64,000 nucleotides of DNA. Source: Lamellibrachia columna (lineage: Eukaryota; Annelida; Polychaeta; Sabellida; Siboglinidae). The position numbers and the translations under genes were made by a program. The stretch spans positions 13,912,642 through 13,976,641 of the forward strand of contig OY759269.1 of the NCBI GenBank assembly GCA_963662155.1, read 5' to 3'. Below the pieces are notes generated by a model. The model was not told where the DNA came from, searched no databases, and saw only the letters and a program-made list of their open reading frames with translations. Shown here in pieces: positions 23,140-51,200 of the stretch (position 1 is its first letter; every line of letters starts with the position of its first letter).

Positions 23140-26100
23140 CTAGAGATCGCAACTACACGGAGTCAGTGTCGACTTTCTTCGTTGGCGCAGCGAATACGTA
23201 GAACCTACGCCACTGGTACCGGAGTCTGTCAAAAACACAAGAACTCATTTTTAGAAACGTCAGCTTATTGAGGTTTGATTATCTTATAATATTATTTGAT
23301 GACGTCTGCCGATAACACATCATACGCTGCTAGTATGAACACTGCCAATGATAGTCTTCAACAAACACTTCTTGGCTAACCACTGAGGATATTTACGAGT
23401 GCTGGTACACTCAAGCATCACACTTGTTCAACACAACCCATCCACTACACTTACCCTGCTTTGGCGTTTCACCCCCGAGGAGAGATTTCCGTTTGCGCGT
23501 AGAGGTGGGCGTGCTAAAGACTGAAGTTGAAATTCTGCAAAATACAGGAAGTATTGCAAGTAAGTATTAGTGAGTGAACAAATCTTTATTTCAACAACAG
23601 ACAAACATAATAGAAATGGCGATGACATTATATCATTACATTACATTACATTATATCATTACAACTATAACTTGTCGAAAAAAGGCCGAGAAGTGTAATA
23701 CTTATATTACTTGCCCTGTTACAAATACAATACGACATAATACTGAATTTAATACATTATACCATTTTGCTCAAGTGACAGATTGTTTTCAATGCATAGT
23801 ACATCTATATAATGTACATTCATGTCATGCCGAACGTGAATTAATCAATTTATTTACGTTCCAAGCCAATAGAATTAGCACAGTCAATTTAACACCAGAC
23901 AGCCAAGTACACCAAGTTTAACTATTTCATCTCTTGTATCATACTTTCTTAACAATTTGGTCAAGATTATAAATAACATTGTTGCTTCCAATACTCATAT
24001 TATATGACATACCATACATGTGAAAAACATTCATTAGTTCTTTTTAAAAACAAAATGTTGTACCGTATCCTCACAACAAAAACACTTACATCCATAAATG
24101 TTTCATATTTTCGTCTGAAGGTTTCTTTGTTTCTTAAAGGATCAATCAAGGACTTGTTTTATCGACACAACTGATAATATTTTCTGAACAAATAGTTAAT
24201 GAGTCACCAAAATGATGCTACTGCATTACTTGGTTATCAAATTGTGATACTTCACAGTGTGGGGCTCGGGGTTTATAGGACTGATGAAGGCCATTTGATT
24301 GCTGTCGAGTCTTGTAACTCACGGAGTATGGACAGGTTGTGGGCTTGTGGCCAACATACCTCAGTGGCGTGCTCTTCCGTAGTTCTCGTTTCATACTTTT
24401 TGGTGCCATCTATGAAAACGAACAATAATTATTAGCAGGACTAATATTATTGACACGAGATAAAGGCGTCTAAAGGTTGCACAAGCGCTGCCTCAGATTA
24501 CGACCAATCAGTCAGCTGTATCAGACTGGGGCGGTATAGAAATCATCACAGGAACTACTGCGCATACCACATTTGTCATGAGTTTTGTTTCCACAAAAAA
24601 TAAAATAATAATAATAACTAATGTACCTGTGGAAAAACCTACATCAAAATATGTTAGTATGCAACAACGGACACTAGCTCCACGATGAGATAGCAAATCT
24701 ATTCAACTATAATTCTGAAAAGGCTGGAATGGTGGTTTCCTATTTCACAGATGACATCTAAAATTTGCACTCATTTTCATGATCAAAAAGATGCCTAACG
24801 ATCGGGACCAATCAGTCAGAGAACTCAGACTGGGGCGGTATAGAAATCATCACAGATGCAGCATTAACTTATCAAGCAAGAACATTTGAAAGTGTTGCGA
24901 AACAGAAAATAAACGTGACAGTACTTGCGAGACAGAACGGGAATCTATTAGCAAGCAAATGTGTGAAATTATAAATGGTAAATGTCAAGGGGGACGAGGG
25001 GCAGTTTAGTGCTTAGAAAAAGAATCCGGTCTAGTGGCTGAACTATATTACTTTCAGTTCACACTGAACTGGGTATAAATCAGATGAGTAATGCTTTCCA
25101 ATTTTTTACCTAAATGTCTGAACTCTTCAAAACATCAAAAGCTGAGATTAGGCAAATGTGTTTACCGGTGTCTTCTTCTTCATGTCGAGAGCCTCTTCAT
25201 CTCTGGCCCGCTCCAAGGCCACTGAACTTTTAGGTAAGTGTCCACTTTTTCGCCGTGGCGTGTCGATCACCACCCAGCTGTCATCAAGGTCATCTGAAAG
25301 TCAACATTCACATTACGGCCAAAGTTATGTATACTTACATGGGAAGAGGTAAATAAATTTTTTTTTTCAATAATTAATATACAAAAACTAAAATATTTCA
25401 CTAAGAGGTCAGAAATTTGGCACGAGTAAATTTTATAACAGTCCCAAAAGAGGGTGGAAAACTTAGTGGTATTTTTTTTAATGATTATATATGGAATGAC
25501 CTACAAGAAACATACTGTGATCTATGCAGTCAACGAAAGATACCAAGACATACCAATCAACATTATTCTGTTGTGCTAGAGCAGTTTTCAGAATTCAGCA
25601 ATGTTTTTTGTAATCTACCAAGTGTCTTTCTCAAGAACGGAAATCTAATGTATTGATGTTAGTGGTGATGCACGAAATCACAATTTACGCAGATGGCTAC
25701 CTTGTGTCGTAATATCCTTGCTCTTTCTCGCTCGCTTGCCACCAGATGCCAGCACCGGTGATGAAAATGAAACGGGTTCCTCACAGCGAGACTTTAGTCG
25801 AGTATGGCTGCTGCCCTCAACATCTTTGCTCTTGTCTTGTGGGGTTTTCTTACTGGACCCGTTCACTTTTAATGACTTCATTGCTGAAAGAACCTTCTTT
25901 ACGTCTGATTTTCGCTGAGCCTTTGGAGTAACCTTGCGTGCCTACACAGAGCCACCGAGGGAGACAATTAGCATCAAGATATTATGGGGCAGCTGAAATT
26001 CAACAGGACAACCGATCCAGTTCATGGGGACATTTGCCAACAGTGAGGACACTCACTCACATTTAGCCCTCCCTTCTCAATACCATTTATTTGCCCGTCT

Positions 26101-29100
26101 CGTTTTAGAATCATTTCATAAAGAATCAAACCTCTCTAGTATCCACTCGGAATGCTCGCTCATTTGAGCAAATGTGTCATTTAGATGATGAAATCATGGG
26201 ACAAAACTACGAAATTATTTTCAAAGAGCTATTGTTGTCCGGCTCTCTATGACGATTTGTAGTTTTACAAGTTACCCGATCTAACAAATTATTTCGATGA
26301 TTTTAATAAGTATGGACTCTTACTAAATGAACTGTGCACATTAATACTTAAACTTACACATTAATACTTAAACTTACTTAAACACACAAAAACTAGTTAA
26401 GCGCTATAGATCTTAACATCAACAAACATGATTTGGGATGGGAATAATAAATTGACAATGGAGTTTTAAAAACCTCTTCTTCTTTATCAAAATAAACGCT
26501 TTAGTTTTTGCAATTTCTACGATGTCAGAATGAAATAAAATTTGGTCACTAAGTAGCCATGACCTACTTGACAGCTAGACATTAAGACAGACAATTGTTT
26601 CCCTCATGTCAATGTTGGAGGATTAAAACATATGGCCATCCTTGTGCTCTTCTTCTTTATCAAAATAAACGCTTTAGTTTTTGCAATTTCTACGATGTCA
26701 GAATGAAATAAAATTTGGTCACTAAGTAGCCATGACCTACTTGACAGCTAGACATTAAGACAGACAATTGTTTCCCTCATGTCAATGTTGGAGGATTAAA
26801 ACATATGGCCATCCTTGTGGTCAGTGAACCCTGTATTAAAACAACGATAACAGAGCAAACATCTAAATATATGTACATTAAATTACTACTAATATACTCA
26901 ACCAGACAAGTTCCTCAGATCAGGACCAATCAGTCAGAGAAATCAGACTGGGGCGGTATAGAAATCATCACGGGAAGCGAGGCTATCAAATCATCTACAT
27001 GGACTACGTAATAAAATTACCTCTGCTGTGGTGAAATCATCTTCTGTCTTCTCCTTCAAAGACTGTAATTCTGCCTGATGGAACAAACCAAGTGAAACAT
27101 TTACAAAGAGACTAAATTTACATAAAATTTTTTTGTTGGATTGTGTACATTGTTACAAACATGCAAAATTCTCTAAAGCCTATGACCATAACGATAAAAT
27201 AAAATCATATTATATAGTTAGTATAAACTATATCAATTCTACCAACATTTCATTATTATCTGTTTATGATATAGACCTTGTTGTTCAGTAAATGCGTTTA
27301 TTGGGGTCAGGCATTCACTTCAGGGCATATTTTTAACACCTGTGAAATTACATTCCATCGCATACAATGAAAACATGATATTCCGACCAAAACATTTAAA
27401 TCGGTGGGGTGGTCACATGTGTCGGTGACTGGTGGCGAATTGGCCCCACCTTTGTATTTATTCCAGTTAGAGCTAGTGTATTTTTAAGCAGGTAGTTGTA
27501 TTCATAGACTGCGTGATAGCATGTAGGGCATTATGCTATTTGGTTTAAGGGTGTTCTATGACAATAGTAATGCCATTGTTTCTTTTATTTGTTCTAGGAA
27601 TACTGCTACTGCTTTGTGTTGAAATTTGGGCTCTATTGAACCCGATGTCCAGGAGGCTCGCATGGGGCGTAGTCAGCCTGGCGTTGGGTTATGGAGCCCA
27701 CATTTCTTTGTTTTACATTTCTTTTAAAGTGGGCTTACCCTTAATCCCCACAATAAACGTCATTCATTTGGCCTTTTCATATCTCTATGTCTGTGTTGTG
27801 TTGTGTTGTTGATTGCATAAATGATATTACGACCAAAACATTTAAATCAGACAGGTCAAACTGTATTAAACAACTATGGTCCATTAAAACAGTTTGGGCG
27901 GTCAAGATGTAGGACTGGATTATACAACGGCTAGCTGTGCCGATATCCATTCGATGTTCACAAACGTATGCTTAACATAGGATTCTCAGAACGAGGCAGC
28001 CGTGCGTTATCTGGATGGATATATCACGGAAATAACACTACCCGATTGGTCTAGAGCCTTTAACCATGATATATCAACTCAGATAATATGCAGCTGCCTC
28101 GTTCCGAGAATCCAGCTAACGTTTATATAATTTTGAAAGCGATCGAGTATGCGCATTGGCACAGACACTGGAGGTGTTATCTGGCTGGCAACACTCTCGT
28201 GACATCAACAAACAGTGTATTGGTCTGTAATTATAGTTTATACAACATAATTATATAACAGAAATGACAAGACACTGTATCCTTAAAATTAGCAATATCT
28301 TGTTAATTTAAAACGTGAGATCACAGAAAATCCGACCGAAAGTCATCAAGTATACTGTATTTCAATTCTGTACATCAATTGACGAACACAGCAATACAAG
28401 AATGGCATCAAGTCACAAGTGGATGTTCAATTGTTATCTAGATTTAAATGAGTTTTTATTTAATAATATATAATATTATATATACATATATATATCTTAA
28501 ATATTACATTATGTGCATTTATATTTATTATTATTTTTATTGTAAAGCACATTGACGTGTATAGTACAGGAGTACGTGCTATAAAAGAGCTATGTATTAT
28601 TATTATTTCCACTCACTGGCAGTCTACTGGCTTTCTTGTCTATGAAGAACAACTCGTCTACGTCATCTGTCGCCATCTCTGCGTCAACCTTCAAGGCCTG
28701 CAAGCAAGCAGATATGTCTATGATATATCAGAGGTAACAGCTAAATGACAAAGGCTAAGTTATAAACTAAAGGTAAAGGTACGTTCTTATATAGCACGGT
28801 ATCCAGTCCTTGGGCCTGCTCAAAGTGCTTTAAACTGTTCATCTCAACACCAAAACAACTTTTAGAAGTATTCAGCCATGCTGCAATTATTGCACGAAGA
28901 CTATTCGTTCACATATCCATCACTGTCTGTAGCCAGGAACTCATTTACACCTGAGTGAACTAAAGCAACATGGAATAAACAAAACTGCCCAAGCTTCAAA
29001 ACAGCAGCAAAAGGATTAGTCTGTTGTTCTAACCTCAACACCACCATGCCCACAAGGCCGTACAACACAAGTTACTGGAGCACAAGTCAGATAATTACCT

Positions 29101-32100
29101 TTTTCTTGCGATGTAGAGTGACAGCCTCTTCAACTTGTGCCTGGTCCACCTCCATTGTGCGTCGACGCAAGCGACAACTACGTCTGCGGGCAACTTGGGA
29201 CGACACGGACCCCTCATCTGACTCTCCTGAAAACGACGCTAGTCGAGTCTAAGCATTAAATAGCCATGTGCTGAAAACAATGTTGTTTCTAAAGCATATT
29301 TGAAGACCCAACTTTCTGCTAGAACATTTTGTATGGTGCTATCAAAAACGATTGATGGATTGGGGCCTTATATAATTTACGATTAGCTCTTACTGAAGAG
29401 GGCATCCAGCTCCAACTTCAATAATTCCAACTATTCTCTTTGTTGCTTTTGTTTAATGCAAACAACAACGACGCATAGACGGAATAACGGACACTGTATT
29501 CCTACGGCATTATTTTCGACATTAGATGTGGACATCACACACTGTACTAGCAGGTACATGAGTGGCCACATGGAACCAACTTGGAGCCAAAAGCTGTGAT
29601 AATCAAGCTTTACGGGGCACCCAGGCTCACTTACTTTAGGCACACACTGGTTTATAGTATGTTCATCAGTTAATACTTGTTACGTGATATATACACAGAA
29701 CCGTGAGTCCGAGATGGAGTAAAAAACTGCACCGACGCCAACTTACCGCCATTGACAGCACCCCTTTTCTGCTGTTCATCACCAGAGGGAGCCAGTTCAC
29801 CAGACACAAAATGTTCTTTCAGTTTCGGTGTTGACTGTTGTTCCTTGCCATGAGATCGCAGCCCAGTAAAACACCCGACATCTCCTGTATTATCACGTTG
29901 TGGGGTCTTCTTACTGACGGATTTCTTCTGTGACTTCCTTACAGAGGATCTCCTTGTTGAATCAGTGCGGATTCTACGTTCAGGTGTGACAGCCGGCGTC
30001 TGAAATTAACCGAAAATAAACTTTATTTCTCTGGGAAGCATTCAGCCATGCTGCAATTACTGCGTGAAGACTATTTGTTCACATATCAACCACTGTATGT
30101 AGCCAGGAACTCATTTATACAGCTGAGTGAACTGATTGCCCAAGCTTCAATAAAGCAGCAAGAGGATTTGAAACTGGATTCTCTCGATTGAGAGACCAAT
30201 GTTTTAACCACTACACCATCGTGTCCTACGACATGGATGGAGCTGCATCAGTTGAACGACTCGTCCATCACGGTCACATTGCCAACAAAGCCTTTATCCA
30301 GAGACTGGTTATCGAACCTTTAACAAACGCAAGCTTTTTAAGCCACACCAAACACCAGGATTGGTTTCAAGTGTAACTGTGTAATTATTTACAATGTAAC
30401 TATGTAGTTAATTACAATCACAATGTAACTATGTGATTCATTATAATTACAATGTAATTGTGATTCATTACAATTATGGTGCAACTGTGTAATGAAATAC
30501 AATTACAATGTAATTATGCAATCAACTATAATCAGTGTATTTATTTACATTTACAATGTTACCGTAACTAATTACATTAGTGTGATTATGTAACTAATTA
30601 CAATTGCAATATAACCATGTAATTAATTACACTTACATTGTAACTATGTAATTAATAACATGTACACTGTAACAATACAACCGGTTACAATCAGTGTACT
30701 TGTGTAATTATTTAGTGTAATTGTGTATTCGATTACAATTACGGTGTGGTTGTCTAATCCATTACAATTAGTGTAATTGTACTTGAAAAAATTAATGATG
30801 CCGAATTATATTTTTTATGATGCTGTGTAATTGCCCATTGTAACTGAACAAACAGTCAACAATACGATGCACAAAGAATTGGTACTTCAAAGATCGCTGA
30901 ATAATAATATGAATAGATGTTCAAAGTTTTTAAATGTGATATTTTACATGGTAATTACCTGAATAAACTTTTTGTATTCTTTCCAAATACCTCAATTTGC
31001 AGTCGGTAAAAATATTTTTGAAAGAAATACAAAACGTTTCCGTAGAAGAAATCCTTCGAAGATGATATTGAACTAGACAATCCCTCAGATTAGGACCAAT
31101 CAGTCAGAGAAATCAGACTGGGGCGGTATAGAAATCATCATGGGAACTACTTTGCAGACAACACTTGCTAAGAATTTTTTCTACATTGAAACTACACTTA
31201 AATTTGGAAAAACCACCACCAAAATACCATAATTTTACATTCGATCTATTAACCGTACATGCCCTAATTAGTGCACACACCCTTTTTTAATCACCATAAT
31301 TATTGTAATTTGACTAGTGTGGAACAACTGAAAAGTGTCGCCATCTGGTGTTGTTGCTAGCGCCACCTTTCAGTTATTCTAGACACTAGACACCTAATGA
31401 CACCACTAGTGTTAAACAGTTACCTTGTAGCCTTGAGAATTTTTTTTTTAACGCTCATAAGAACAGATTTCTTGACATTTTTCCATGGTCAAATTTTTTT
31501 CAAGCGTAATGTACGTTTATTAGGTCGAATACGGTATGTTAATGTGCAAAAATGGACACTAGTTTAATAATAAGATAGTAAATCGATTCTAGTTTAATTT
31601 TTAAAAGGATGGTACGGCAGCTTCCTGTTTTGCATATGACACCACTGAGATGCTGAACTTCTCACTAATTTTGTTTAGCTAAAAATATGTAAAGTTTCAC
31701 AAGAGCTGCCTCAGATCGGAACTAGTCAGTCAGAGGTCAGGGATGGTATTGAAATCATCACAGGAAGCAATGCATACACAGCATTCTACAAAGCTAGATA
31801 AATTAACAAAATACCCAGAAATGTTTGTTTATAACACGGAATGCCCAGATACATATCACCGCTATGAAATATTATAAATTGTTATTTCTCAAGGCTTACA
31901 ATCTTAAGTTATTTACAACAACACTGCCTCATTGCAACAGCTAAGACCTATTTCAATAGTTAATCAAATGGTAATTTTAAATTAATAATTCATGCCATCT
32001 TGTGTATCTTTTCACCAGTAAATTTTGTTCAGTCAAATGGAAATTCCAGTGAATGGAAATTCACTTCAAACCACTGCAATGTATATAACATCGTGAGGAT

Positions 32101-35100
32101 GGTGTCAACCCGAGCCATAGTATACTCGACCAGACAAGTTCCTCAGATTCGGACCAATCAGTCAGAGAAATCAGACTGGGGCGGTATATAAATCATCACA
32201 GGATCCTTGAGAGTGTACAACACCGTCCAGGGACTGAGAGTAGACTACCCTCGCCATTGCTACACAGAATTGCCTAAAAACAGATTCGATAACATGGAAT
32301 ACCCAAAGCCTGCTTCCTTGCAAAAGTTGCAGTGTATGTTATTGTATGTTGTCACATAAATTTGGCAGAACTACATCACAGCTTTAAAGGATCAAAAACT
32401 GTTATTATCAAGACTTGTATTTGAAATCATTTATAACAATCTTACCTCTTTGCAACAGCTAAAACCTATTTAAACAGTAATCAAATGCTGTAGTAACTTA
32501 GGGCCTTACACAAATTGTTTGGGTAAAACAGGGTTGTGAACATCCCAAATAGATGCAATACCCTCTGTTGCACTCAGCAGGAGCAGAGCCATCCTGGAAC
32601 AAAACCCAGCATTACTGTACTCAACCAGCCATGTTCCTCAGATCAGGACCAATCAGTCAGAGAAATCAGACTGGGGCGGTATAGAAATCATCATGGGAAC
32701 TACTTTGCAGACAACACTTGCTAAGAATTTTTTCTACATTGAAACTACACTTAAATTTGGAAAAACCACCACCAAAATACCATAATTTTACATTCGATCT
32801 ATTAACCGTACATGCCCTAATTAGTGCACACACCCTTTTTTAATCACCATAATTATTGTAATTTGACTAGTGTGGAACAACTGAAAAGTGTCGCCATCTG
32901 GTGTTGTTGCTAGCGCCACCTTTCAGTTATTCTAGACACTAGACACCTAATGACACCACTAGTGTTAAACAGTTACCTTGTAGCCTTGAGAATTTTTTTT
33001 TTAACGCTCATAAGAACAGATTTCTTGACATTTTTCCATGGTCAAATTTTTTTCAAGCGTAATGTACGTTTATTAGGTCGAATACGGTATGTTAATGTGC
33101 AAAAATGGACACTAGTTTAATTTTTAAAAGGATGGTACGGCAGCTTCCTGTTTTGCATATGACACCACTGAGATGCTGAACTTCTCACTAATTTTGTTTA
33201 GCTAAAAATATGTAAAGTTTCACAAGAGCTGCCTCAGATCGGAACTAGTCAGTCAGAGAGGTCAGGGATGGTATTGAAATCATCACAGGAAGCAATGCAT
33301 ACACAGCATTCTACAAAGCTAGATAAACTAACAAAATACCCAGAAATGTTTGTTTATAACACGGAATGCCCAGATACATATCACCGCTATGAAATATTAT
33401 AAATTGTTATTTCTCAAGGCTTACAATCTTAAGTTATTTACAACAACACTGCCTCATTGCAACAGCTAAGACCTATTTCAATAGTTAATCAAATGGTAAT
33501 TTTAAATTAATAATTCATGCTATCTTGTGTATCTTTTCACCAGTAAATTTTGTTCAGTCAAATGGAAATTCCAGTGAATGGAAATTCACTTCAAACCACT
33601 GCAATGTATATAACATCGTGAGGATGGTGTCAACCCGAGCCATAGTGTACTCGACCAGACAAGTTCCTCAGATTCTGACCAATCAGTCAGAGAAATCAGA
33701 CTGGGGCGGTATATAAATCATCACAGGATCCTTGAGAGTGTACAACACCGTCCAGGGACTGAGAGTAGACTACCCTCGCCATTGCTACACAGAATTGCCT
33801 AAAAACAGATTCGATAACATGGAATACCCAAAGCCTGCTTCCTTGCAAAAGTTGCAGTGTATGTTATTGTATGTTGTCACATAAATTTGGCAGAACTACA
33901 TCACAGCTTTAAAGGATCAAAAACTGTTATTCTCAAGACTTGTATTTGAAATCATTTATAACAATCTTACCTCTTTGCAACAGCTAAAACCTATTTAAAC
34001 AGTAATCAAATGCTGTAGTAACTTAGGGCCTTACACAAATTGTTTGGGTAAAACAGGGTTGTGAACATCCCAAATAGATGCAATACCCTCTGTTGCACTC
34101 AGCAGGAGCAGAGCCATCCTGGAACAAAACCCAGCATTACTGTACTCAACCAGCCATGTTCCTCAGATCAGGACCAATCAGTCAGAGAAATCAGACTGGG
34201 GCGGTATAGAAATCATCATGGGAACTACTTTGCAGACAACACTTGCTAAGAATTTTTTCTACATTGAAACTACACTTAAATTTGGAAAAACCACCACCAA
34301 AATACCATAATTTTACATTCGATCTATTAACCGTACATGCCCTAATTAGTGCACACACCCTTTTTTAATCACCATAATTATTGTAATTTGACTAGTGTGG
34401 AACAACTGAAAAGTGTCGCCATCTGGTGTTGTTGCTAGCGCCACCTTTCAGTTATTCTAGACACTAGACACCTAATGACACCACTAGTGTTAAACAGTTA
34501 CCTTGTAGCCTTGAGAATTTTTTTTTTAACGCTCATAAGAACAGATTTCTTGACATTTTTCCATGGTCAAATTTTTTTCAAGCGTAATGTACGTTTATTA
34601 GGTCGAATACGGTATGTTAATGTGCAAAAATGGACACTAGTTTAATAATGAGATAGTAAATCGATTCTAGTTTAATTTTTAAAAGGATGGTACGGCAGCT
34701 TCCTGTTTTGCATATGACACCACTGAGATGCTGAACTTCTCACTAATTTTGTTTAGCTAAAAATATGTAAAGTTTCACAAGAGCTGCCTCAGATCGGAAC
34801 TAGTCAGTCAGAGAGGTCAGGGATGGTATTGAAATCATCACAGGAAGCAATGCATACACAGCATTCTACAAAGCTAGATAAACTAACAAAATACCCAGAA
34901 ATGTTTGTTTATAACACGGAATGCCCAGATACATATCACCGCTATGAAATATTATAAATTGTTATTTCTCAAGGCTTACAATCTTAAGTTATTTACAACA
35001 ACACTGCCTCATTGCAACAGCTAAGACCTATTTCAATAGTTAATCAAATGGTAATTTTAAATTAATAATTCATGCTATCTTGTGTATCTTTTCACCAGTA

Positions 35101-38100
35101 AATTTTGTTCAGTCAAATGGAAATTCCAGTGAATGGAAATTCACTTCAAACCACTGCAATGTATATAACATCGTGAGGATGGTGTCAACCCGAGCCATAG
35201 TATACTCGACCAGACAAGTTCCTCAGATTCGGACCAATCAGTCAGAGAAATCAGACTGGGGCGGTATATAAATCATCACAGGATCCTTGAGAGTGTACAA
35301 CACCGTCCAGGGACTGAGAGTAGACTACCCTCGCCATTGCTACACAGAATTGCCTAAAAACAGATTCGATAACATGGAATACCCAAAGCCTGCTTCCTTG
35401 CAAAAGTTGCAGTGTATGTTATTGTATGTTGTCACATAAATTTGGCAGAACTACATCACAGCTTTAAAGGATCAAAAACTGTTATTATCAAGACTTGTAT
35501 TTGAAATCATTTATAACAATCTTACCTCTTTGCAACAGCTAAAACCTATTTAAACAGTAATCAAATGCTGTAGTAACTTAGGGCCTTACACAAATTGTTT
35601 GGGTAAAACAGGGTTGTGAACATCCCAAATAGATGCAATACCCTCTGTTGCACTCAGCAGGAGCAGAGCCATCCTGGAACAAAACCCAGCATTACTGTAC
35701 TCAACCAGCCATGTTCCTCAGATCAGGACCAATCAGTCAGAGAAATCAGACTGGGGCGGTATAGAAATCATCATGGGAACTACTTTGCAGACAACACTTG
35801 CTAAGAATTTTTTCTACATTGAAACTACACTTAAATTTGGAAAAACCACCACCAAAATACCATAATTTTACATTCGATCTATTAACCGTACATGCCCTAA
35901 TTAGTGCACACACCCTTTTTTAATCACCATAATTATTGTAATTTGACTAGTGTGGAACAACTGAAGTGTCGCCATCTGGTGTTGTTGCTAGCGCCACCTT
36001 TCAGTTATTCTAGACACTAGACACCTAATGACACCACTAGTGTTAAACAGTTACCTTGTAGCCTTGAGAAAAATTTTTTTTAACGCTCATAAGAACAGAT
36101 TTCTTGACATTTTTCCATGGTCCAATTTTTTTAAAGCGTAATGTACGTTTATTAGGTCGAATACGGTATGTTAATGTGCAAAAATGGACACTAGTTTAAT
36201 AATAAGATAGTAAATCGATTCTAATTTAATTTTTAAAAGGATGGTACGGCAGCTTCCTGTTTTGCATATGACACCACTGAGATGCTGAACTTCTCACTAA
36301 TTTTGTTTAGCTAAAAAATATGTCAAGTTTCACAAGAGCTGCCTCAGATCGGAACTAGTCAGTCAGAGAGGTCAGGGATGGTATTGAAATCATCACAGGA
36401 AGCAATGCATACACAACATTCTACAAAGCTAGATAAACTAACAAAATACCCAGAAATGTTTGTTTATAACACGGAATGCCCAGACACATATCACCGCTAT
36501 GAAATATTATAAATTGTTATTTCTCAAGGCTTACAATCTTAAGTTATTTACAACAACACTGCCTCATTGCAACAGCTAAGACCTATTTCAATAGTTAATC
36601 AAATGGTAATTTTAAATTAATAATTCATGCCATCTTGTGTATCTTTTCACCAGTAAATTTTTTTTCAGTCAAATGGAAATTTCAGTGAATGGAAATTCAC
36701 TTCAAACCAGTGCAATGTATATAACATCGTGAGGATGGTGTCAACCCGAGCCATAGTGTACTCGACCAGACAAGTTCCTCAGATTCGGACCAATCAGTCA
36801 GAGAAATCAGACTGGGGCGGTATATAAATCATCACAGGATCCTTGAGAGTGTACAACACCGTCCCGGGACTGAGAGTAGAGTACCCTCTCCATTGCTACA
36901 CAGAATTGCCTAAAAACAGATTCGATAACATGGAATACCCAAAGCCTGCTTCCTTGCAAAAGTTGCAGTGTATGTTATTGTATGTTGTCACATAAATTTG
37001 GCAGAACTACATCACAGCTTTAAAGGATCAAAAACTGTTATTCTCAAGACTTGTATTTGAAATCATTTACAACAATCTCACCTCTTTGCAACAGCTAAAA
37101 CCTATTTAAACAGTAATCAAATGCTGTAGTAACTTAGGGCCTTACACAAATTGTTTGGGTAAAATAGGGTTGTGGACATCCCAAATAGATGCAATACGCT
37201 CTGCTGCACTCAGCAGGAGCAGAGACATCCTGGAACAAAACTCAGCATTAATGTACTCAACCAGCCATGTTCCTCAGATCAGGACCAATCATTCAGAGAA
37301 ATCAGACTGGGGCGGTATAGAAATCATCACGGGAAACAATGCCACGAAACCGTCTACTACACTACGATTAACTGTCCAACTGGATGGCAGACCCGGTATC
37401 ACGTGATTTCACAGTACAAGAATCAGTCGTGTAAACACCTTTGCGAGACCAATTAGCAAGGCGAATTTGTGTTATGATTGTATCGGAGAAAGCTGGGACA
37501 GTTCCCAATTTCGACGACAGTTGGCAGCGACTTTGTTGTTGTGGCCAATCATCAATGCTCAAATCGGGAGTGGCACAAGTCAATATCTAGGTCGCAGAGT
37601 CTAGACTCTCATCTAAAAGCACACATCATTTAGCTGTGCACTGTCATATGAAACAGTGCACCCGACCAATTGGGACATTTGTCGTGGATCAGCTCTGCTT
37701 CTTTTTCCTGCCCCTATTTCCTCCAGTATCGTCTTTTTCCTAACTCATCATGGCTCTTAAAGTGGATAAAATATTTGGCACAAGTGTTATATGTATCATT
37801 CAGTACCATTATGATGGTAGAATGTGCTGTCGTATATGCGCAGTATCTTGCTGCAGCATTTCATCTCAAAGGCACTGTTAGTAAACTGATAATAACAGAC
37901 AAGCCAATTTAATATATATTTGTGGAAAAACAAAATTATTACTCATACTAGACATGTCCCTCAGATTAGAACCAATCAGTCATCAGTATCAGACTGGGGC
38001 GGTATAAAAATCATCACGGGAACTAGAGGACAACAATTTTACTACAGGGTTTGATTGACAGAATTACCTCATTGTCAGAGTCACTGAGATGTTTTGCTCT

Positions 38101-41100
38101 TCCAGAAAGCCGTTTTGCTTTGCCAGAAAGCTGTTGTGTGATACTGGAGAGACGTTCTGCTCCATCCGAGTCTTGTTCTGCCTCACCGGAGATATCAATG
38201 TTTTGATTGGCAGCCACATTAAGGGTGCGGAACTCAACCTGGCATGGAAAGAATCACGTCACTGACATTACAATATAATACAATAAAGACACTTCTATTG
38301 TACTAAAATCCTCAGGAAACCCAAGCTCAGCAGCGTGCCAAAACAAAAGGGTTAGGCAGTTGTTAATCAGTTAGCAATGCCAATCGTAAACATTTGGATT
38401 GGTACATTGAGGAGCTATGAAAGATAAGCGAGTTTAGAAAGGTAGGTGTGTCTTTGTTGATGGTGAAATATTTCCTGCCGACTTAACACTGATAGGGAGT
38501 GAGTTCCACAGAGTCAGTGCTATAGTTCCGACGTTTGTCTTAACACTGGGTATGAAAAGTTTATTAGAACTAGATGATCAAAGCTGTCTGGGTTGTCTTG
38601 TAGGAGTGAGCAGTGAATGTATATATCTGGTTGCTTGGATGAAAGTGCTTGATACGTAACTGTACAGATCTTTAAACTAATGAGATATCAAGATCCTAAT
38701 GTTAGTACTCCCAAAATGTTTCCAAACCAAGCGGCGACTATTTCCAAAAACTTTCAGACAAATAAATTTTATATATTACAGAAAAAATAAGACAAAACAG
38801 ACAACAATACTGCTAACACAATTAACTAGAGACCTTCCTCAGATTAGAACCAATCAGTCACCAGTATCAGACTGGGGCGGTATAAAAATCATCACGGGAA
38901 CTAGAGGACAACAATTTTACAAAAGGGTTTGATTGACAGAATTACCTCATTATCAGATTCACTGTGGCGTTTTGCTCCTCCAGAAAGCTGTTTTTCTCTT
39001 CCAGAAAGCTGGTTTTGTTCTCCAAAAAGCCGTTTTTCTCCACCAGAAAGTCGTTTTGTCCTGGCAGAAAGCTGTTTTGTGCTACTGGAGAGACGTTCTG
39101 CTCTGTCAGAGCCGGGTTCTGTCCCACCGGATATATCAAGATTGTGATCTTCAGCCAACTCCACCTAACACAGAAGGAATTGTATCAGTGACAAATGTCC
39201 ACAGCCAATCGAACTTATGAATCAGCATCTCTCTGACAACCCATAAGACTGCAGATTTTAATTTTGTATCTACGTTTTTATAAATGTACAGTATATGCTA
39301 CTAGATGCTGATTTTCTGAAACACCTCATCAATTTAACATACATTTGTGAAAAAATAAAGCAATAAAATTACTACTAATACTAGACATGTCCCTCAGATT
39401 AGAACCAATCAGTCATCAGTATCAGACTGGGGCGGTATAAAAATCATCATGGGAACTAGAGGACAACAATTTTACAAAAGGGTTTGATTGACAGAATTAC
39501 CTCATTATCAGATTCACTGTGGTGTTTTGCTCCTCCAGAAAGCTGTTTTTCTCTTCCAGAAAGCCGGTTTTGTTCTCCAAAAAGCCGTTTTTCTCCACCA
39601 GAAAGTCGTTTTGTCCTGGCAGAAAGCTGTTTTGTGCTACTGGAGAGACGTTCTGCTCTGTCAGAGCCGGGTTCTGTCCCACCGGATATATCAAGATTGT
39701 GATCTTCAGCCAACTCCACCTAACACAGAAGGAATTGTATCAGTGACAAATGTCCACAGCCAATCGAACTTATGAATCAGCATCTCTCTGACAACCCATA
39801 AGACTGCAGATTTTAATTTTGTATCTACGTTTTTATAAATGTACAGTATATGCTACTAGATGCTGATTTTCTGAAACACCTCATCAATTTAACATACATT
39901 TGTGAAAAAATAAAGCAATACAATTACTACTAAAACTAGACATGTCCCTCAGATTAGAACCAATCAGTCATCAGTATCAGACTGGGGCAGTATAAAAATC
40001 ATCACGGAACTAGAGGACAACAATTTTACAAAAGGGTTTGATTGATAGAATTAGCTCATTGTCAAAGTTAATGTGTCTGCCCCACGTAGTGCTGCGGACA
40101 GTTGTACGTAATAAATACAAAGGGTAATTTGGTTGTTCGTAGACAAGGTAACAGTGGGGTTAATTTCTAAATCTAGAACCGAGACGACCCAATTGTGGGG
40201 AACCCCTGAAAGTTTGGCGAGATAAGATAACCAGGACAATGCTGATTAGAGACAGGCTTTTGTTTTTAATAACATAACAAGTAACATAATTACTTCTTCA
40301 ACGTCACTCTGGTTTTCAGGCTCAACAGAAATGTCATCCGTTACGACTCGTTCCAAATCAATATCTTTTGGCTGTAGTTCAATCTGAAATGGAACGAATA
40401 TAAACCCATAGTTAATTATACCAGTAACAATTCAAGAGTCTTGTAACACGCAGGCCCCAGTTATTACACCTGTGATATCTGATATAAGTCAGACGTAACA
40501 AAGTGAATTATTAGGAATAACCAAAGTAGTGCCAGAGATTTTGATTTTTCTTGTGATAAACATTTAATAAAATATATCCCTCAGATCAGGACCAATCAGT
40601 CAGAGAAATCAGACTGGGGCGGTATAGAGATCATCACTGGACACATGGGTAAACAGCATTGTTCACGAACCGAATAACCTGACCAATGCAACACAAAATT
40701 TCCCCCAAAAAAAATTGGCAATGTGGAACGTTGGGCTTAGAGACACAGGTATCAAGTAGGATATACCTCTCATACTACGGCGTCTCAACTAAATCTGATA
40801 ATTCGAAAGCCATCACAGCAGGGGAGAAGAGATTTTCACTGACCGGCAGATTTGTGGCTTCTTTGTCTATAAAGAACAGTGGCTCTTCACTGCCTGTCCT
40901 GGTCATCTCCGCGGTGTGGTCAGTGTCGTCCAGTGTCTCAGTGGTGACCAGGCTGCTTGAGTCACTCATCTGTATGTCGTCCGTCAACATCTACAATAAC
41001 GAGTGAAACCCGCCATTATTATTTGACTAATGAAGGGACTAGTTTTAATACTTAATGCGTTAATAAACTTGTGGACCTGCGAAAATTCACAAACATCAGT

Positions 41101-44100
41101 GGAATTAAAAGGAAAGATGTGCGATGGCAATCAATATAATTTATTTTGCTATTATATGAAGCAAAAAACTCCTGAAGCAAGATGTGATGAAAGATCACGA
41201 CAAGTACACCCGATACAATCGTTGCCATTCATGGACCGACCGATTCATGGACTGCGATACTGCGCAACACCGAGTCAGCCAACCAACTGGACAATTTATC
41301 ACTCATGTAACTGGATTTTACTTACGTCCATCAACAAGCTAAGACTGTTTGCATTGCATTCTTGTAGCAGGACACTGCTCACAGCAACACCTCCGATGCA
41401 CTCCATCTCCAGCAAACACACATTCTGATTTCGCAACCACTCGGAATAGCCAGCAGGTGCTGCCACCTGCAGGGCAGTCTGCAAACCATCGACACAATAA
41501 AAAATAAACTACGATAGCCCGTCATCTATGGGATAGTTTCTTAGGTAAATGTTTTTGTTTCATGGAACGAAATGGCTACAAATGCAATGGAAACAATTGC
41601 GGTGATTATTTGATACTAGATGCGCTGACTACAAAAGGTGATTTCTTCAGAATAAAACCAATCAGTCACACTGTGTTCAGACTGGGGCGGCATTACATCA
41701 TCACTAGAAATATCGGGTGGCTTTGTTATTGAAACTTCGATAGATTTGCACGTGTAATGCCACTGCCTTCGTTGTGACAATAATGACTTTCTCAAATTGT
41801 TAGTAAAAAAAAAAAAATATGCTGGTGGAAGACATATTTTATCACTAATGTTTCAAAGGTTTGGTGGCATGATCGCCATTCCAAACAAAGGTTCACCCCT
41901 ACAGTATTTTTAACAGGGAATCTTAGGTCCCTGCAAAAATGGTCAAGTCTTGATACCAAGATTCTGATTAATTAAATTTGACACTATTAATCACAGTAAC
42001 ACAAGTGCTTTCTTCAGAACAAAACCAATCAGTCAAGCTGAGATCAGACTGGGGCGGTGTTACATCATCACTAGAAATAGCAGGTGGCTCACCATGGTGA
42101 AATCTCAGTAGAAGTTTACCAACAACACTGGTAGAAGATTCTTCAGAAATGATTCTTGACACAACAGCCCCATATTGTCACCACATGAACAATATACCAG
42201 TTTATTTTTACTTTGTGATCAGTAATGTTGTCACACCGACTTGTAATTTCCTGACTTGCGTAGCACCTTGCACATAGGAAGGAAGTTGGAAGTACCGTAT
42301 TCGACCTATTAAGTGTACATGCCCTAATTAGTGTACACTTCTTTTTTAATCAGCAGGATCCATAATTATTGTAACCTGACTAGTGTGGAACAACTGAAAA
42401 GTTTTGCCATCTGGTGTTAAACAGTTGGCACTACTTTTCAGTTGTTCTACACTAGTCACCAAATGACATTAGTGTTAAACAGTTACCGTATTGTCTAGAG
42501 AAAAACATTTTGGTGCACGCTTATAAGAACAGATTCTTTGACATTTTTCCATGGCCCAATTTTCTTTCAAGTGTACGTTTCTTAGGTAGAATACAGTACG
42601 TATCTCTTGGATGATACATTAGAAGCCGTAGGTTCCTTCTACCCGGTGTTTCTGCCAGGGGAAGGAAAAGATTTTATCTACGGGATAAATAAGTAACCTG
42701 CCATTTACTTTGTTTACAAGGCACTAAATCATTATGATCGAGTTGGACCGCAATCATCAAGCCGATAATCTTGCCATGTAAACATTTTGGGATTAAAACG
42801 ATCGCGATGCATTTTTCATGCTTCGGACGTGGATCGTGATCATGATGGAGCAAGTATTGTGGTTGAAGGGTCATGTAAACGGTTTGGAATTGTGATCATA
42901 ACACCAAACCATTATTGATCATTGCACTGAATGGCAAAGTTCTGACGCGATGCTCGTGTTGGATCTCGATGGCTTTGCAACTTTGTATCATGACTGTGAT
43001 ATTGCTATGGCGATCTGTCGGTCAATGCCACGTAAACGGGTTAGTGAACTCAGAGTGTGACTAATACAGAAATTGTTCATTAACGTGTTAATTAATTCAT
43101 TAGCATAAAATAATGGACCTACAAAAATCACAAACATCACTGGAATTAAAAGGAAATGCCGTAACAGTGACAATCAACATTTTATTTTATTGTCACACGT
43201 AGCAAAGAACTCGTGATTTTAGCTTTGATGATTGGTCACGATAGGTGCACCTGCTGTTGGTCACCGATTGATCACTGCTTCAAAATCGTTACCGACACTC
43301 GGCCAAATTTGGACGACTTACACAGAGGCATGAGATGTAATGGACGAAGAAGACAACACAGATCACGTACCTCACAAAGGGCGACACTTTTCTGCGTGAA
43401 GAGGTCGGTGGCTTGCCGTGCCGCCAGCATATACTTCGTGTAGAGGGTGGGGTTGGATGTCACATTCACCATCTCCAATGCTTTCCTACAACAGACGTCA
43501 CACAAAATTAAAGCTAGGTCCACACAGGGGAACCACTGTTATGATTTTTTCGTATAGTAGACTTAAAACAGATCAAAAGGGACGTTGTTAGTATGTTCTT
43601 ATATAGCGTATGTTCTTATGGTACCTTCTTATACAGATCGGTATCCAGTCCTTCTAACTGTTCAAAGCGCTTTACAAGCCAAGCCTTTTAACCGCTTAGC
43701 CACTGCATCCCACATTATGTAAAATTTGGGATTAAGGATTTTGTACACAACTCATGTTAAAGTGCAGAACTGGTTAGTCACACAACGTAAGGCGTCATAA
43801 ACTTGTCAACGAGACAAAAAGTCTAAAAAGTGACCCAAGTTGATTTTAGTGGAATATTTACAAAAACCAGTGTCATAGAATATAAGTGGAAAATAGACCC
43901 TGGATGCTTTGTCCCCCTCCGTCATATATTCCGTCAAGGTTAATTATGCTGCATTATAGAACATGGAACTGACCTACAGAATTTAAACCCACACTACCCC
44001 TTCAGAAATTTCACTGCTGTTGTTGTCTCATTGGGACGGTCTCTAATCTATCTGACGGTCCCCATTCTATCTGACACCGGCACAGAAAAGAGAAGTTGCA

Positions 44101-45193
44101 TCTCACCTGTAGAGTGGCAAGAGAACTGCGCTGTCGCTAGGTGTCGCCTGTGTCTGCTGCAGTACAACATCGAGAATGTGACCATGACTGCGCCTCAGCA
44201 GGTATGCGGCAGAGTTCATCAGTCGCTTCGCCTTGCGTCTTTGCTGTTCTGCGTCTTTCTGCCTAATACGACATTTCTACCTTCAATACGGCTGTACCCA
44301 ATTTTGGGGGCCATTCACAGTAATTATTGTCAATATTTACCCATTCATACAAAGCTTACAAAAGGAGGCATCAAGGCCCATGTACTAATTTAAATAAATG
44401 TCAGTCGTACGCCAAATATGAAAACTGTTGCGTCATGCAATGCTGCATGGTGAACTGTTATGGAACTACTATTGTTTTAAATTTGTACGAACAGTATGTC
44501 GACAATTGTGAATGGCCCCTTACTGATCCGATCAAAAACAACTTCAACAATGTTCTACAAAGCATCGAAAGTCGAATTTACATGAGGCGATAACGTTGTC
44601 ACGAGGCGATGGTGGCGTCACTAGAAAAGGTCACAACCATTTCACATTGTATGTGACGTCACATCAAAATACCATATTTGACTTAAGCATAGTGTGCTTG
44701 AATAAAAATTTGCCCATGAAAAAAATGTCAAGGAATCTATTCTTATAAACGTACACCAAGATATGTTTCTCTAGACAATAAGATAACCGTTCAACACTAG
44801 TGGTGTAATTTGGTGACTGGTTTAGAACAACTGAAAAATGGTGCCAACTGCTTAACACTAGATGGCGACACTTTTCAGTTGTTCCACACTAGTCAAATTA
44901 CAATAATTATGGATCCTGCTCATAAAAGAGGTGTTCGCTAATTAGGGCATGTATGCTTAATAGGGCAAATACGGTATATCAATAACGAGAAAAATTGTTT
45001 TGTTAGCATGCCTAATAAACTGATATACAACATAAATCGGTTGGTCCTGCAAGTACTTGCCTGGTCGAGAGCAGAACGACATCAACATAGACGGACAGCA
45101 AGGCCGCCATGAGGCCATGGTAGGTAGGGGGTTGCGAGAACTACAGACAGAAAGAACAAACTGTAGAAATCAACAAATAAATACTATAACCAT

Positions 45194-45232
<39 letters not shown>

Positions 45233-48200
45233 CACACTGTGTCTTTCTAAGCTCTTACCTGAAAATAAGATTGGATATCCAGAACAAACGGTTCTTTCAA
45301 ATGATTACAAAATGATCCATCACTGAGAATTATTAGCTACCCACTTCTTTAACAAACAAGGAAAATTTGGTGGGAAATAAGAACTTGTAGAAATATATCC
45401 AAATAACATCCAGTGATGACTTTTTGTAACTTAGCTGTACGTAATAATATGTAGCCATGTTCTGACAATCAGTTCACTTTTTCTCAGTTCAGGATACCAC
45501 AGGATATGAGAATAATAATAATATGAATTTATGTAGCGCATGAATCCACTTAAAATGAAATGCTCTCGGGTGCTTTACATAAAATTAAATATGTATATAT
45601 GTAGTTAAGAAAATAAACTGTGTAAAACAGACAAGATGGTTAAGACACATTCTAAATTTACACCAAAACGGATAAGACATTAAAATTATAATTCATATAA
45701 CACACATATATATATAAAACATAGGGAAAGTGACATTAAAAACACAGGGAAAGTGACATATTAAAATTGGTATAGTTGGTGCTTGGATGAGAATACAATC
45801 AGTTCACTTTTTCTCAGTTCAGTTGTAGAAACATGTTTAAGCCTCCCATTCTATTAACAATTTCATGCAGATACACCACAAGGATTGAGCTAATGATTTT
45901 CCAGTATTTTGTATACAAGATGCATACAATGTCCACTTGTAAGTTCCTGAGATCAAAACTGATCAGTCAGGCCACTTTCAGACTGGGGTGGTACAGGATC
46001 ATCACGAATACGCACAATCACTTGATTACGCAATAATGATGACAAATGAACAAAGTGTACCTTTTCTCTGGCCACATAGCAGTGGTCGCAGTAATGGAGA
46101 AATCGCTTCAACTCCTGTTCGACTATCGACAACCTACAAACAAGTTCATGACATACGTTACACAAATCCCGGAGCACCCTGCAGATTTTTACATTAAACA
46201 TACAAAGTCTAATCATTTTGTATCGTAAAATCGTGTTATATAGAATAAACTATATCTATTGTAACATTTTGACTATCAACCCACACGTTCTATGGATGAA
46301 TATACCATCGTCCCAAAAAATATGTCTCCTCCACATGCAATGTAAACATCAGGCTGAAACATTCAAATTAAACATAACAATAAAATTACATCAAACAAGT
46401 TGTGGTTAATTAAAACACATTTGGGCAGTCAAGATTTTAGAATAGATACCTATTTTACACAGTTCCAGTAACACTGTATGTTTGCTGGAACGTTCAAGTT
46501 GTGATATAAGCTACATAATCCACAAACACAGTGACTACAAACATACCTCAAGCAGACAACTGTAGAGAAACCTAACAAATATGACTAATATCAAACTCTT
46601 GGTTTTTCATTTATACCAAACATGTAGAAAAACTAATCTCACTGTTGTAACACCTATCATTTCAAATCTCAATATGAAAATACATAATTCATTACATGAT
46701 GCCAAAATGAAAAGTAACAAATGCAAGGCTATTTGTAAGCTGACAGACCCACTTACACAAGAGAACAGAACGTTGAATGTGGTCAACAAACAAACCTGTC
46801 AAGCTTCAGACCATTTAAGAAGTCTTCTGTGAGACGCTCCACAACTTTGCTGCATAAAACGAGAAATCATTATATATCGCATTTCCTTTTAACAGTTAAG
46901 GCTGGTTTACACTTGTGAGCGATTTTTGCCGTGTGTTGCACAATAATGCGCAACTAAATTGTGTGGATTTAAATGAGCAACATCTCTAGAAACTGCTACC
47001 TATATATTTACTCACTACGCCTTCAAAGTGATCAACTGTTAGAACTCGTTTCAATTCTTCCTGACAAATTAGGTTCGACAAATTGACCTCAGATGGATGT
47101 TCATATCCTTGCAGTGCAACATCGCACAACACTGTGGACAAAATTCACAAGTACAAACTGAACTTAATCTTCACATTGTGAATAATCTAAACTATATTTG
47201 TAAAATATATTACAGAACAATGTTAAGATAAACAGCATTACAAGTAGACACATTTAGTAAACACTACTGAAGTGAAAAGAGATTGTAAACTTTTTATGTA
47301 CGATGAAGCAATTTCAGGTATCGAGTTAATCTAACTAGGACACATTTTTTCTAACACAGTACATAATTTATGCAACAATAAAAACAACACCACTGAACAT
47401 TCACCTGGTATACAACTTCATCGTTGTTTGCAGAACTTCATTTGAGATGTTCATGGCACAAGTCAAGGTCACTTTCCATCGAAGGTCAGCCAGCCACTGC
47501 AACTCAGTTGGTCCGGAAAACTTTGCTTGCTTGCCCTAAACATTATTTCAACTCATGAATATAAATCTGTTTCCAGTGATCGCACTAAATAAGTAAGCAG
47601 CTTTCTAGTCATTCTCAATGTTCAGTTATCATTCATGAATTTACAATTATTATTATTATTTTGTACAGCATCACATCCAATACAATTCACACACCCAGTA
47701 ATATTACAAATAATATTATATATAAAATGTTTTAAAATAATTAAGATTGGCATGTAAATATGATCATGAGCTATATGATATAGATAAAAAAAGCAGCATC
47801 ACATATAACATAGAATAAAAAATGTCAGGTTGAATATAAAACAAATAAATTAGATTAAATGCTTGCACCTATGAATCTACATACACACACACACACACAC
47901 GCACACTTGAGTTCAATTTACCATTTTTATTGATCCAAGTGGCCTTTTCTGTTCCGGACTATCTGAAAGAAAATAATCTCAATTACAACACATATTATAC
48001 CTATTTAAACTAGTGCCATGGGTACAAATGAGAACAAACTATTGGAAACCTGTCCAGCCACATTCACAAAATGGTCAGCATAGTGAATTCCGTGAATACA
48101 TTCACTGTCATCCAGCACATTACGCAGAAGTGGACAGAGCATTCATAATAATGTATGCCTGAATGTGTTTGCATAAGTAAGCCATTTCTCAACCTTCTTA

Positions 48201-51200
48201 ACTACAAGTCATAGCATGTGGGGACCGTTGATGGCCTACGCTCCCAGCGAGTAAACAGGCCTAAGGAGGACACAGTAACAACTTACATATTTTCTTCCGC
48301 CTGTCAACTGAGTTGCAGTGTTTTGCTGCATTTCCCCTCAGACAGCCAGACACGAGCTGTCCGTTCTGTCCAGTCTCCTGCAGCACACGCCTGGCAAAAC
48401 AACCAGCAAGTCTTACTCCAAAAGTACCAGGGACAAAATCGTTTCGAAACGTGGAATTTTGCGTAATGTTACTGCAACTCTGTGAGTAATACAAGGTCAT
48501 AACTGTCAACATTTGACAACCAAACACCATATATGACAGCCATCAGTGATCACATATGAGTGCATCATATCAATAAATTGAGCCCATCTGTAGTGCCAAT
48601 TTATTACCTTTGCAAGTGTCAGCGTGATGACGCATTAATGCATGTCCAGATATAATGCACAGGGTTTTTGTTAAGAGCCGGGACCTGGGTAATTTACCCG
48701 GCTATGGCGATCCATGTTCCCGGCTATCGTAGTCGACGTAGTCGTAGAGCTAGATGGAAGCCGATTTTTATTATCCCTCGCGTCGGCTAATGACCGACCT
48801 GCTTTTGCATTAAACACTGCAGCGTCAACGTCTCACAGACAGGTCAGCTATCATTGATGATAACGACATGTGGCAGCAAAGCAGCGCTGGTCAACAAATG
48901 TCATTTTGCGTTAATACACAGCAGTTTTTAAATAATTCGCACAGACATTTTACGCATCGCCAAACCATATTTACTTCCCACAATTCATAGCGTTACTTGT
49001 GGTTCGTAGTTAGTAGACTGTCCGCCAAGCGCCTAGCGGACAGATTGGTAACCTCGTCACGCATAGCGGACAGGTCGGCAACCATGCCATAGCAGTTCAG
49101 TAAAATAAGATGTCTAAGAGACAATCGTAAATAGTGCATTTTTTTAAAGCAAACTTATAAGAAAAGGTAACGTTCGTTAAAGCATATCCCGAAATGTTAG
49201 TCACTGAACTTGGCCAATATTATCCTTAAATAGCGTCTGAATATTCCATTATTGCCAGAGTTTTACGAAACTGGTCAGCGTATGCTGCTGGCGCGTGGCG
49301 AACCCCTACTAGTGATCTAGTCTGGCACTGAACTGCCATGAAATGGCAAAACTTGCCAAAAGGGATCAAGTGATGATGAGGTGTTTTTGAGATATCGGAT
49401 ATTACAGCATAGTAATTATTCACAATTCTATGGACTATTTGATTGTGTTTATAAAATGACTTGTATACTGGTTGCTGCACCATTCACTATAGCCTAAGCC
49501 CTAGGTCATAGACTAGTACATAATATAATATGTGTAGTTTGATAATCATATTTTTTTCATTAAAAACTTTTCTAACAATTTGTTTGCACTTGCAACGATG
49601 ATATAATTGTTTGTGATTTAGAATATGGATGTCTTAGGCAAAAGTTTCTTCTGATTTTTTTTAAAAACGGCATGTTATATTACATATAGCGACTGGCTCG
49701 GCACAATAATTCTTGCCTATGTTACTATACTGTTTATGACGTTGATTATTTGGTAACTTAGTATCACTTGCTTCCCTTTGAAAAAATGTGTGACAAAGAA
49801 GCAACCTTGAATAACCCGCTTAACAAAAACCAAAGCAGGACAATTATGTGATCAATTGTGGCAAACGATGTACATTTTCACAATTATTAAGTTTTTGTGT
49901 TTTTTTCAATTTGGAAAAGCACGAAGTTCGGACACACGACCATTTCCAATATTCATATCAACAAGGTACTATTAGTAACCTTTGCTATCTGTTGCTGTGC
50001 GATAATTCGTAATATTTTCATTAATTTGTTACGCGGTCATGAACATATGTATGGGCATTATTGGACTATTTGGGAGAAAAAGGCGATTAGGCAAAACAGT
50101 AATTTTCTATTGCTATATAAACTAAACTCCTGAAATTTTAATATGTCGTTTACCTAATAAAGGAATGTGCACAACTTGCAAAAATGGTTATCATAGAACT
50201 TGTCCTACATTCTCATTTTGGGTATTGAAATTCGTAAAATATCGGAAAAGTAAAAATTTAAGGCTGTATTATTCTACATTCCTAGTGACAACCAAGAGGT
50301 TATTACCAGTATCCGTGACAACATGATATCAAAATGGACCTTGTACTGTAACACAATTACACACAGGCTGCTGAAATCACTCTGGGAAATTAACGAGAGA
50401 CTCGGGTCGGATTTGACGGATTTTAGACAATAAAATGAATTTCGAGTTGTTTCCATTTCCGTGTATAAATATTATTCAACTTGCCATTCATGTAAGTTGC
50501 ACTGCCGAAATAAACATGTTTCTGTCATGAAACATGTCTTTTGTATGATGCCTATCATTGCTAAGTCTTTGTTTTTGTCAAATGAACTAATGGAACATTA
50601 GGTGATTTTCCGAGAGCGATTGCATGCCGAAAAACTCTGCCATTCCAACATGGTGCAAATCACGCTCTGCATGATGGTACAAACAGTTATAAAATGTGCG
50701 CGGCGGGTATCCATGTAATTCCGACTATAAATGACCACCTTTGAACCATCTCGGCGACAAAGAATGGGGAATCCCACGATGATTCGGCGGACAGCATCAC
50801 ATGATGTCGGATTCCCTCAAATCAAGCGCTCTAATTGGTAGTAATATTAATTTCCATCCTCTGACGTCAGCTTGAAATACCAGCTACGTTCGATTCGATC
50901 GACTTTTTTATCCCCTGCGTTTCGTTCAGTTATATCGCTTTGTAAAACGACATTATGCCATTTGGTCGAAAGCAAGTGGGAGATCTTTCAACAGTACTTG
51001 TAAGCTGTGACGTGTTGCCATCTCTTGTTGCGAACCTGCCATGCACATTGTGTAGGATGCATACACTCTCTATCCTAGCTGTCGGCCGCATCCCTCGGCA
51101 TGGTGTGTGGCCTCGAGACTTTCTGCACCAGTTGCGACAAGGTCATCAATACAACTCTGTCATCAGACCGTATCGATGAGACTCAGGCGAGAGTCTGTGC

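Follow-up and report, generated by a model that had tools for sequence, protein, structure and literature searches.

A predicted array of U31 (SNORD31) box C/D snoRNAs in nine introns of one protein-coding gene of the annelid Lamellibrachia columna

The host gene and its intronic modules

We analyzed a stretch of 64,000 nucleotides (nt) from the annelid Lamellibrachia columna (assembly GCA_963662155.1, contig OY759269.1, positions 13,912,642 to 13,976,641), in the following called the window and numbered from its first nucleotide. It contains a protein-coding gene with many introns that carry modules of the box C/D small nucleolar RNA (snoRNA) family U31, also named SNORD31. A first-pass annotation had described 20 such modules with common boxes on the minus strand. 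These 20 were all recovered, and the array turned out to be larger, as a pattern catalogue together with Rfam yielded 24 modules, i.e., 20 with the canonical guide and four variants with an altered guide that had not been part of the earlier claim. The gene and the modules are:

23140..56364, minus strand, host protein-coding gene, 25 exons, 1,012 amino acids (aa), ortholog of Lamellibrachia satsuma LSAT2_000826
45947..46012, minus strand, U31 module, intron 7; one mismatch in the guide, D box CTCA, score under the Rfam threshold
42008..42078, minus strand, U31 module, intron 10
41641..41711, minus strand, U31 module, intron 10
40575..40644, minus strand, U31 module, intron 12
39943..40011, minus strand, U31 module, intron 13; follows a decayed exon end with donor CT, not GT
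39388..39456, minus strand, U31 module, intron 14
38833..38902, minus strand, U31 module, intron 15
37955..38024, minus strand, U31 module, intron 16
37273..37337, minus strand, U31 module, intron 16; C' box TGAATGA
36775..36840, minus strand, U31 module, intron 16
36340..36402, minus strand, variant-guide module, intron 16
35714..35779, minus strand, U31 module, intron 16
35219..35284, minus strand, U31 module, intron 16
34785..34847, minus strand, variant-guide module, intron 16
34159..34224, minus strand, U31 module, intron 16
33664..33729, minus strand, U31 module, intron 16
33230..33292, minus strand, variant-guide module, intron 16
32634..32699, minus strand, U31 module, intron 16
32139..32204, minus strand, U31 module, intron 16
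about 31707..31767, minus strand, variant-guide module, intron 16; bounds estimated from the other three variants, no Rfam row
31079..31147, minus strand, U31 module, intron 16
26910..26977, minus strand, U31 module, intron 20
24782..24860, minus strand, U31 module, intron 22; damaged D box
24486..24556, minus strand, U31 module, intron 22

The model of the host gene has a single reading frame from an ATG at 56364 to a stop codon ending at 23140, and its introns are of the GT-AG type, with the addition of one GC-AG intron (intron 8, 45060-44263, minus strand). The 942-aa protein LSAT2_000826 of the vestimentiferan tubeworm L. satsuma is 89% identical to the host protein, with a best local alignment that comprises 55% of the query. 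It matches 24 of the 25 exons; the exception is the 41-nt exon 4, which has no row of its own. A partial L. satsuma protein, LSAT2_010094, has an identity of 86% over 37% of the query. The ortholog was found with a 994-aa host query in a protein search that compares only proteins of similar length; a 298-aa host query had no match in the same search. The two L. satsuma versions, which are located on different contigs, are 96% identical to each other and differ in the lengths of their LSG-repeat exons; they could be haplotypes or paralogs. Pfam scans of the partial and the full host protein yielded no family above the cut-off, and two PDB sequence searches yielded no match and a single match at an E-value of 0.82, respectively. 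An AlphaFold model based on a two-sequence alignment had a mean predicted local distance difference test (pLDDT) score of 36.2 and was too poor for a comparison with structure libraries. Early guesses that the host might be treslin, separase or NEPRO were dropped, as there was no match of any kind.

All 24 modules lie in sense orientation in nine of the 24 introns: introns 7, 12, 13, 14, 15 and 20 contain one each, introns 10 and 22 two each, and intron 16 contains fourteen. The nine module-bearing introns are all in phase 0, compared to four of the 15 others. In five of them (introns 7, 14, 15, 16 and 20) the first C box follows the 5' splice site at a distance of 50-56 nt, and in the remaining four the distance is 207-1,300 nt.

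Family assignment and boxes

When the window was scanned with the Rfam model SNORD31 (RF00089, gathering score 40 bits), as the first-pass annotation had proposed, 19 of the 20 canonical copies scored above the threshold. These matches fall between positions 24486 and 42078 of the minus strand and have scores of 51.0-61.7 bits and E-values of 9.7e-12 to 1.1e-8. The twentieth copy, at 46 kb, did not reach the threshold; it was picked up with 32.8 bits in a second scan with permissive settings (E<=1). Three of the variants were found at 28.6 bits, and the fourth, near 31.7 kb, was not listed at E<=1 and was identified by pattern match only. Thus, 19 of the 24 modules exceed the RF00089 gathering score, whereas the 46-kb copy and the four variants do not. 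Neither scan gave a SNORD31 match at any other position of the window or on its plus strand. Weaker matches to GlsR4, the homologue from Giardia, coincided with the SNORD31 copies in the permissive scan. Together with the complete gene model, these results uphold the earlier assignment of the modules to the SNORD31/U31 family, at a high copy number and in the introns of a single coding host.

The canonical modules, with C boxes from 46004 to 24548, contain ACCGCCCCAGT followed by CTGA with at most one change, and at the RNA level the guide ACCGCCCCAGU directly abuts the D' box CUGA in these 20 of the 24 modules. The C box (RUGAUGA) is present in 24 of 24 modules and the D box CTGA in 22. As had been noted before, the D box is damaged in two cases, namely in the modules with C boxes at 46004 (CTCA) and 24852 (CGTT). 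The C' box is altered to TGAATGA in one module (C box at 37329).

The four variants, with C boxes at 36395, 34840, 33285 and 31760, have intact C, C' and D boxes. However, the stretch from the C box to the D' box is 4 nt shorter and lacks GCCCCAGT, and instead AATACCATCC precedes the CTGA. Within the window, no complement to the variant guide of at least 11 nt was found besides the copies themselves, and two complements had a length of 10 nt. One variant is present in each of four tandem units of about 1.55 kb in intron 16, and it is likely that all four derive from one mutated copy that was carried along in the unit.

Conservation of the modules

Conservation was quantified with nine representatives of different flank lineages, and the variants were left out. 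The mean pairwise identity was 0.96 for the guide, 1.0 for the D' and C' boxes, 0.94 for the C box and 0.79 for the D box, which includes the two damaged ones. In contrast, it was as low as 0.43 for the linker between D' and C' and 0.32-0.35 for the flanks. For 176 of the 276 module pairs both flanks were at background, defined by random 100-nt windows (mean identity 0.49), and the mean core identity of these pairs was 0.79. A tree of the modules had little resolution (2 of 17 inner branches starred). The contrast between a conserved guide with its boxes and a divergent linker disfavours a recent mobile burst or gene conversion, either of which would have kept the linker too, and it supports the view that the copies are old and have been under selection.

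The first-pass annotation had instead argued for function from closing stems that change between subtypes with pairing kept. The counts do not support this argument. A closing stem of at least 4 bp is present in 13 of the 24 modules, and the covariation was not above that of shuffled sequences. The mosaic conservation of the modules is a stronger argument for function than stem compensation.

Origin of the copies

A recent duplication that includes a coding exon is found upstream of intron 16:

39501..39719, minus strand, 73-aa exon, first copy of a recent exon and snoRNA duplication
38946..39164, minus strand, 73-aa exon, second copy

The two units of exon and snoRNA-bearing intron, at 39719 and 39164, are identical in 549 of 555 columns. 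Each L. satsuma protein has a single 73-aa exon compared to the two copies of L. columna. The exon end, the splice-site region and the module recur, at 92-95%, in a third related exon (at 38238) and in a remnant at 40.0 kb. This remnant has the donor CT in place of GT, and nevertheless its snoRNA still passes the Rfam threshold with 51.4 bits. Judged from these sequences, exon, splice site and snoRNA are copied as a single unit.

The copies most likely arose by stepwise growth. In a first step, a phase-0 exon would have been duplicated together with its snoRNA-bearing intron, with the reading frame kept. Subsequently, some of the duplicated exons would have decayed while the snoRNA stayed, and the tandem growth of the 1.55-kb unit inside intron 16 would have come last.

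By eye, related stretches (ACCTAATAAACGTACATTACGC... and CTAGTGTAGAACAACTGAAA...) were also seen in several introns, at about 44990-44680, at 42590-42290 and inside each 1.55-kb unit; they look like a short transposable element.

Intron 16

More than half of the modules are concentrated in one large intron, which has the following features:

30000..38067, minus strand, intron 16, 8,068 nt, 14 modules (10 canonical and 4 variant)
31141..37329, minus strand, tandem array of four units, about 1.55 kb per unit; 2 canonical modules and 1 variant in each
37229-37082, 35673-35526, 34118-33971 and 32593-32446, minus strand, 148-nt candidate exon with good splice signals, one per unit

The units are 98.2-99.8% identical overall; three of them are identical at 99.7-99.8%, and the fourth differs by 1.6-1.8%. 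The L. satsuma protein joins the exons that flank intron 16 directly, and therefore no coding exon is expected among the 14 modules. The length of the 148-nt candidate exon is not a multiple of three, and it contains a stop codon when read in phase 0, so it is possibly a poison exon or a non-coding exon. In total, intron 16 has five candidate exons, four of which are the repeated 148-nt exon. These 5 candidates in 8.05 kb do not exceed the density of four control introns, which have 8 in 11.15 kb.

The usual route of snoRNA release, as given in a review, is from the spliced intron via debranching and trimming. In plants and algae, snoRNA clusters are described as being processed from polycistronic precursors. 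Two snoRNAs within one intron are stated to be the prerequisite for the formation of sno-lncRNAs, which are long non-coding RNAs (lncRNAs) with snoRNA ends (PMC4234469, PMC11028025). The 14 modules of intron 16 could be separated by splicing at the recurring 148-nt candidate exon, or they could form a string similar to a sno-lncRNA.

Interpretation and alternative explanations

Taken together, 19 copies past the family threshold, one intact host, the location on one strand and in phase-0 introns only, and the joint copying of exon, 5' splice site and snoRNA support the interpretation that the array is a large set of conserved U31 box C/D snoRNAs in nine introns of one coding gene. It is predicted that the copies are set free from the introns after splicing, and their likely task is to direct 2'-O-methylation at the P-loop G of 28S ribosomal RNA (rRNA). 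We assign a probability of about 0.7 to this interpretation.

Several observations weigh against it. Selection within the youngest 1.55-kb units is not supported, as their cores show no depletion of changes (2 of 164 columns versus 26 of 1,357, p = 0.76). Seven of the 24 modules deviate in a box or in the guide, namely two with a damaged D box, one with a changed C' box and the four with a changed guide class. In 11 of the 24 modules the closing stem has just 2-3 bp, and 73 of 500 and 150 of 500 shuffles reached the covariation score in the two registers tried (16 distinct rows). The rule of one snoRNA per intron, as stated in the review, does not fit 14 modules in intron 16 and two each in introns 10 and 22. 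In addition, the p value for the association with phase 0 (Fisher, p = 0.0006) is descriptive, because co-copied introns are not independent.

The alternative that survives best, though we consider it unlikely, is passive amplification, in which tandem duplications within a rapidly changing gene would have multiplied a snoRNA although a single working copy, or a few, would suffice. Most of the present copies, above all those in the 8-kb intron, would then be redundant and seldom released. The undepleted cores of the young units, the seven modules with box or guide defects, the 14 modules within one intron and the copy number of the exon and snoRNA unit, which is unlike that of L. satsuma, would all be compatible with such a process. 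However, it does not explain why the guide and the inner boxes are near-invariant over nine lineages that have background flanks and differing linkers, nor why at 40.0 kb the snoRNA persists behind an exon end that has decayed.

A further, quite doubtful view concerns intron 16 as a whole. It might be a string of small nucleolar ribonucleoproteins (snoRNPs), in which 14 U31-type assembly sites would be lined up on a kilobase-scale RNA that is capped by snoRNPs at both ends and has a second guide specificity built in by the four variant modules, and the coding gene of an invertebrate would thereby also supply a poly-snoRNP scaffold. The stricter version, that intron 16 gives rise, in place of single snoRNAs, to one long RNA that ends in snoRNPs, contains further modules and has a role of its own, is less probable still. 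It would agree with the presence of 14 modules in one coding intron, with the lack of a coding exon between the flanking exons in the L. satsuma protein, and with the stated prerequisite of two snoRNAs per intron (PMC4234469, PMC11028025). Conversely, the 148-nt candidate exon that recurs in every unit could split intron 16, although candidate exons are no denser there than in the control introns.

An assembly artefact, by which the 1.55-kb array would be partly spurious and the copy number inflated, is highly unlikely; the near identity of three of the four units would fit, but the fourth unit differs from these by 1.6-1.8%, and introns other than intron 16 contain 10 of the 24 modules. Finally, a recent burst of retroposed snoRNA elements that seeded the introns could account for similar cores in different flanks, but it is poorly supported and very improbable, as 24 of 24 modules are on one strand of one gene and only in phase-0 introns, linkers are 0.43 and guides 0.96 identical, and flanks with exon and splice site are shared.

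Predicted function

For the U31 family, the literature lists the guide sites Gm4166 of human 28S rRNA, Gm2616 or Gm2619 of yeast (snR67; the papers number differently), Gm2610 of plants and Gm2040 of Giardia (PMC3511168, PMC8817022, PMC11427974). The U31/snR67 snoRNP is presented as the cytosolic counterpart of the enzymes that modify the P-loop G, which is Gm2251 in bacteria (PMC7600485), and the guide is included in the set listed for the last eukaryotic common ancestor (PMC3511168). The P-loop G proposed at first annotation as guide site, the equivalent of Gm2251, is in agreement with these papers (PMC3511168, PMC8817022, PMC7600485). Because the guide is identical, the P-loop G of 28S rRNA is likely to be the target also in L. 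columna; a search for the rRNA of this animal gave 0 matches, so that the target site is taken from the papers.

If the array of U31 snoRNAs operates in this way, splicing, debranching and exonuclease trimming would leave a C/D snoRNP from each released copy, and the copies would add up to the dosage of one housekeeping guide. Selection for this dosage would maintain the guide and the boxes, and linkers and flanks would be free to drift. The array raises the question of why about 20 genes are kept for one rRNA mark, for which dosage, fractional methylation or drift can be considered. Two further questions concern the number of mature snoRNAs that a single animal intron can supply and the possibility that a phase-0 exon, together with its snoRNA-bearing intron, is a frame-safe copying unit, in which case the growth of a snoRNA set lengthens the protein too.

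Neighbouring genes

The gene for GPN3 (GPN-loop GTPase 3) is located at 14182-19026 on the plus strand and, with a stitched query, is 98% identical to that of L. satsuma; the next rows had an identity of at most 75% among the best 120 of 1,296 matches. With the host protein, this match places the window in a close relative of that tubeworm (Siboglinidae). A second gene on the plus strand, at 58848-63654, encodes an RRM domain (PF00076, Pfam) and has a long proline-rich exon; presumably it resembles a SETD1 histone methyltransferase. At the edge of the window, positions 1-388 consist of 97 repeats of the tetranucleotide GGCG.

Comparison with known systems

In vertebrates, U31 is usually present as a single copy in SNHG1. 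The modules described here are like SNORD31/U31 (RF00089), yeast snR67, plant AtsnoR35 and Giardia GlsR4 in guide, in C, D', C' and D boxes and in size, but differ from these relatives in that about 20 copies are present in one coding gene, alongside four modules whose guide is different.

SNORD115/116, SNORD113/114 and rat Bsr are described as large tandem arrays in which repeated introns carry a single C/D family (PMC11028025), and in this respect they are similar to the array of L. columna. However, these arrays are described as eutherian (Bsr in rat only), orphan, hosted by lncRNAs and located at imprinted loci, whereas here an rRNA guide is found in a coding host of an annelid. Of the features typical for SNORD115/116, i.e., an orphan guide, an lncRNA host and an imprinted eutherian locus, the orphan guide, the lncRNA host and the eutherian genome are thus absent. 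The same 2024 review regards large C/D tandem repeats as eutherian innovations with orphan targets and lncRNA hosts, and it expects more of them in understudied genomes (PMC11028025). Compared to sno-lncRNAs, more than one snoRNA per intron is a common feature, but sno-lncRNAs are described with two snoRNA ends in contrast to the 14 predicted modules of one family seen here.

No U31 array was found in the titles and abstracts of the open-access literature searched, which misses most subscription journals. Intragenic duplication of snoRNAs as such is well known (PMC2653536). Vertebrate rRNA-guide snoRNAs that were duplicated in cis are, like the modules of L. columna, copied within one host gene with their guides kept (PMC2653536), but as far as described there, the copies are far fewer, whereas here exons are co-copied and 14 modules are present in one intron. 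What is new here, as compared to these systems, is a large C/D array of a housekeeping rRNA guide that resides in a coding gene of an invertebrate and is copied together with exons.

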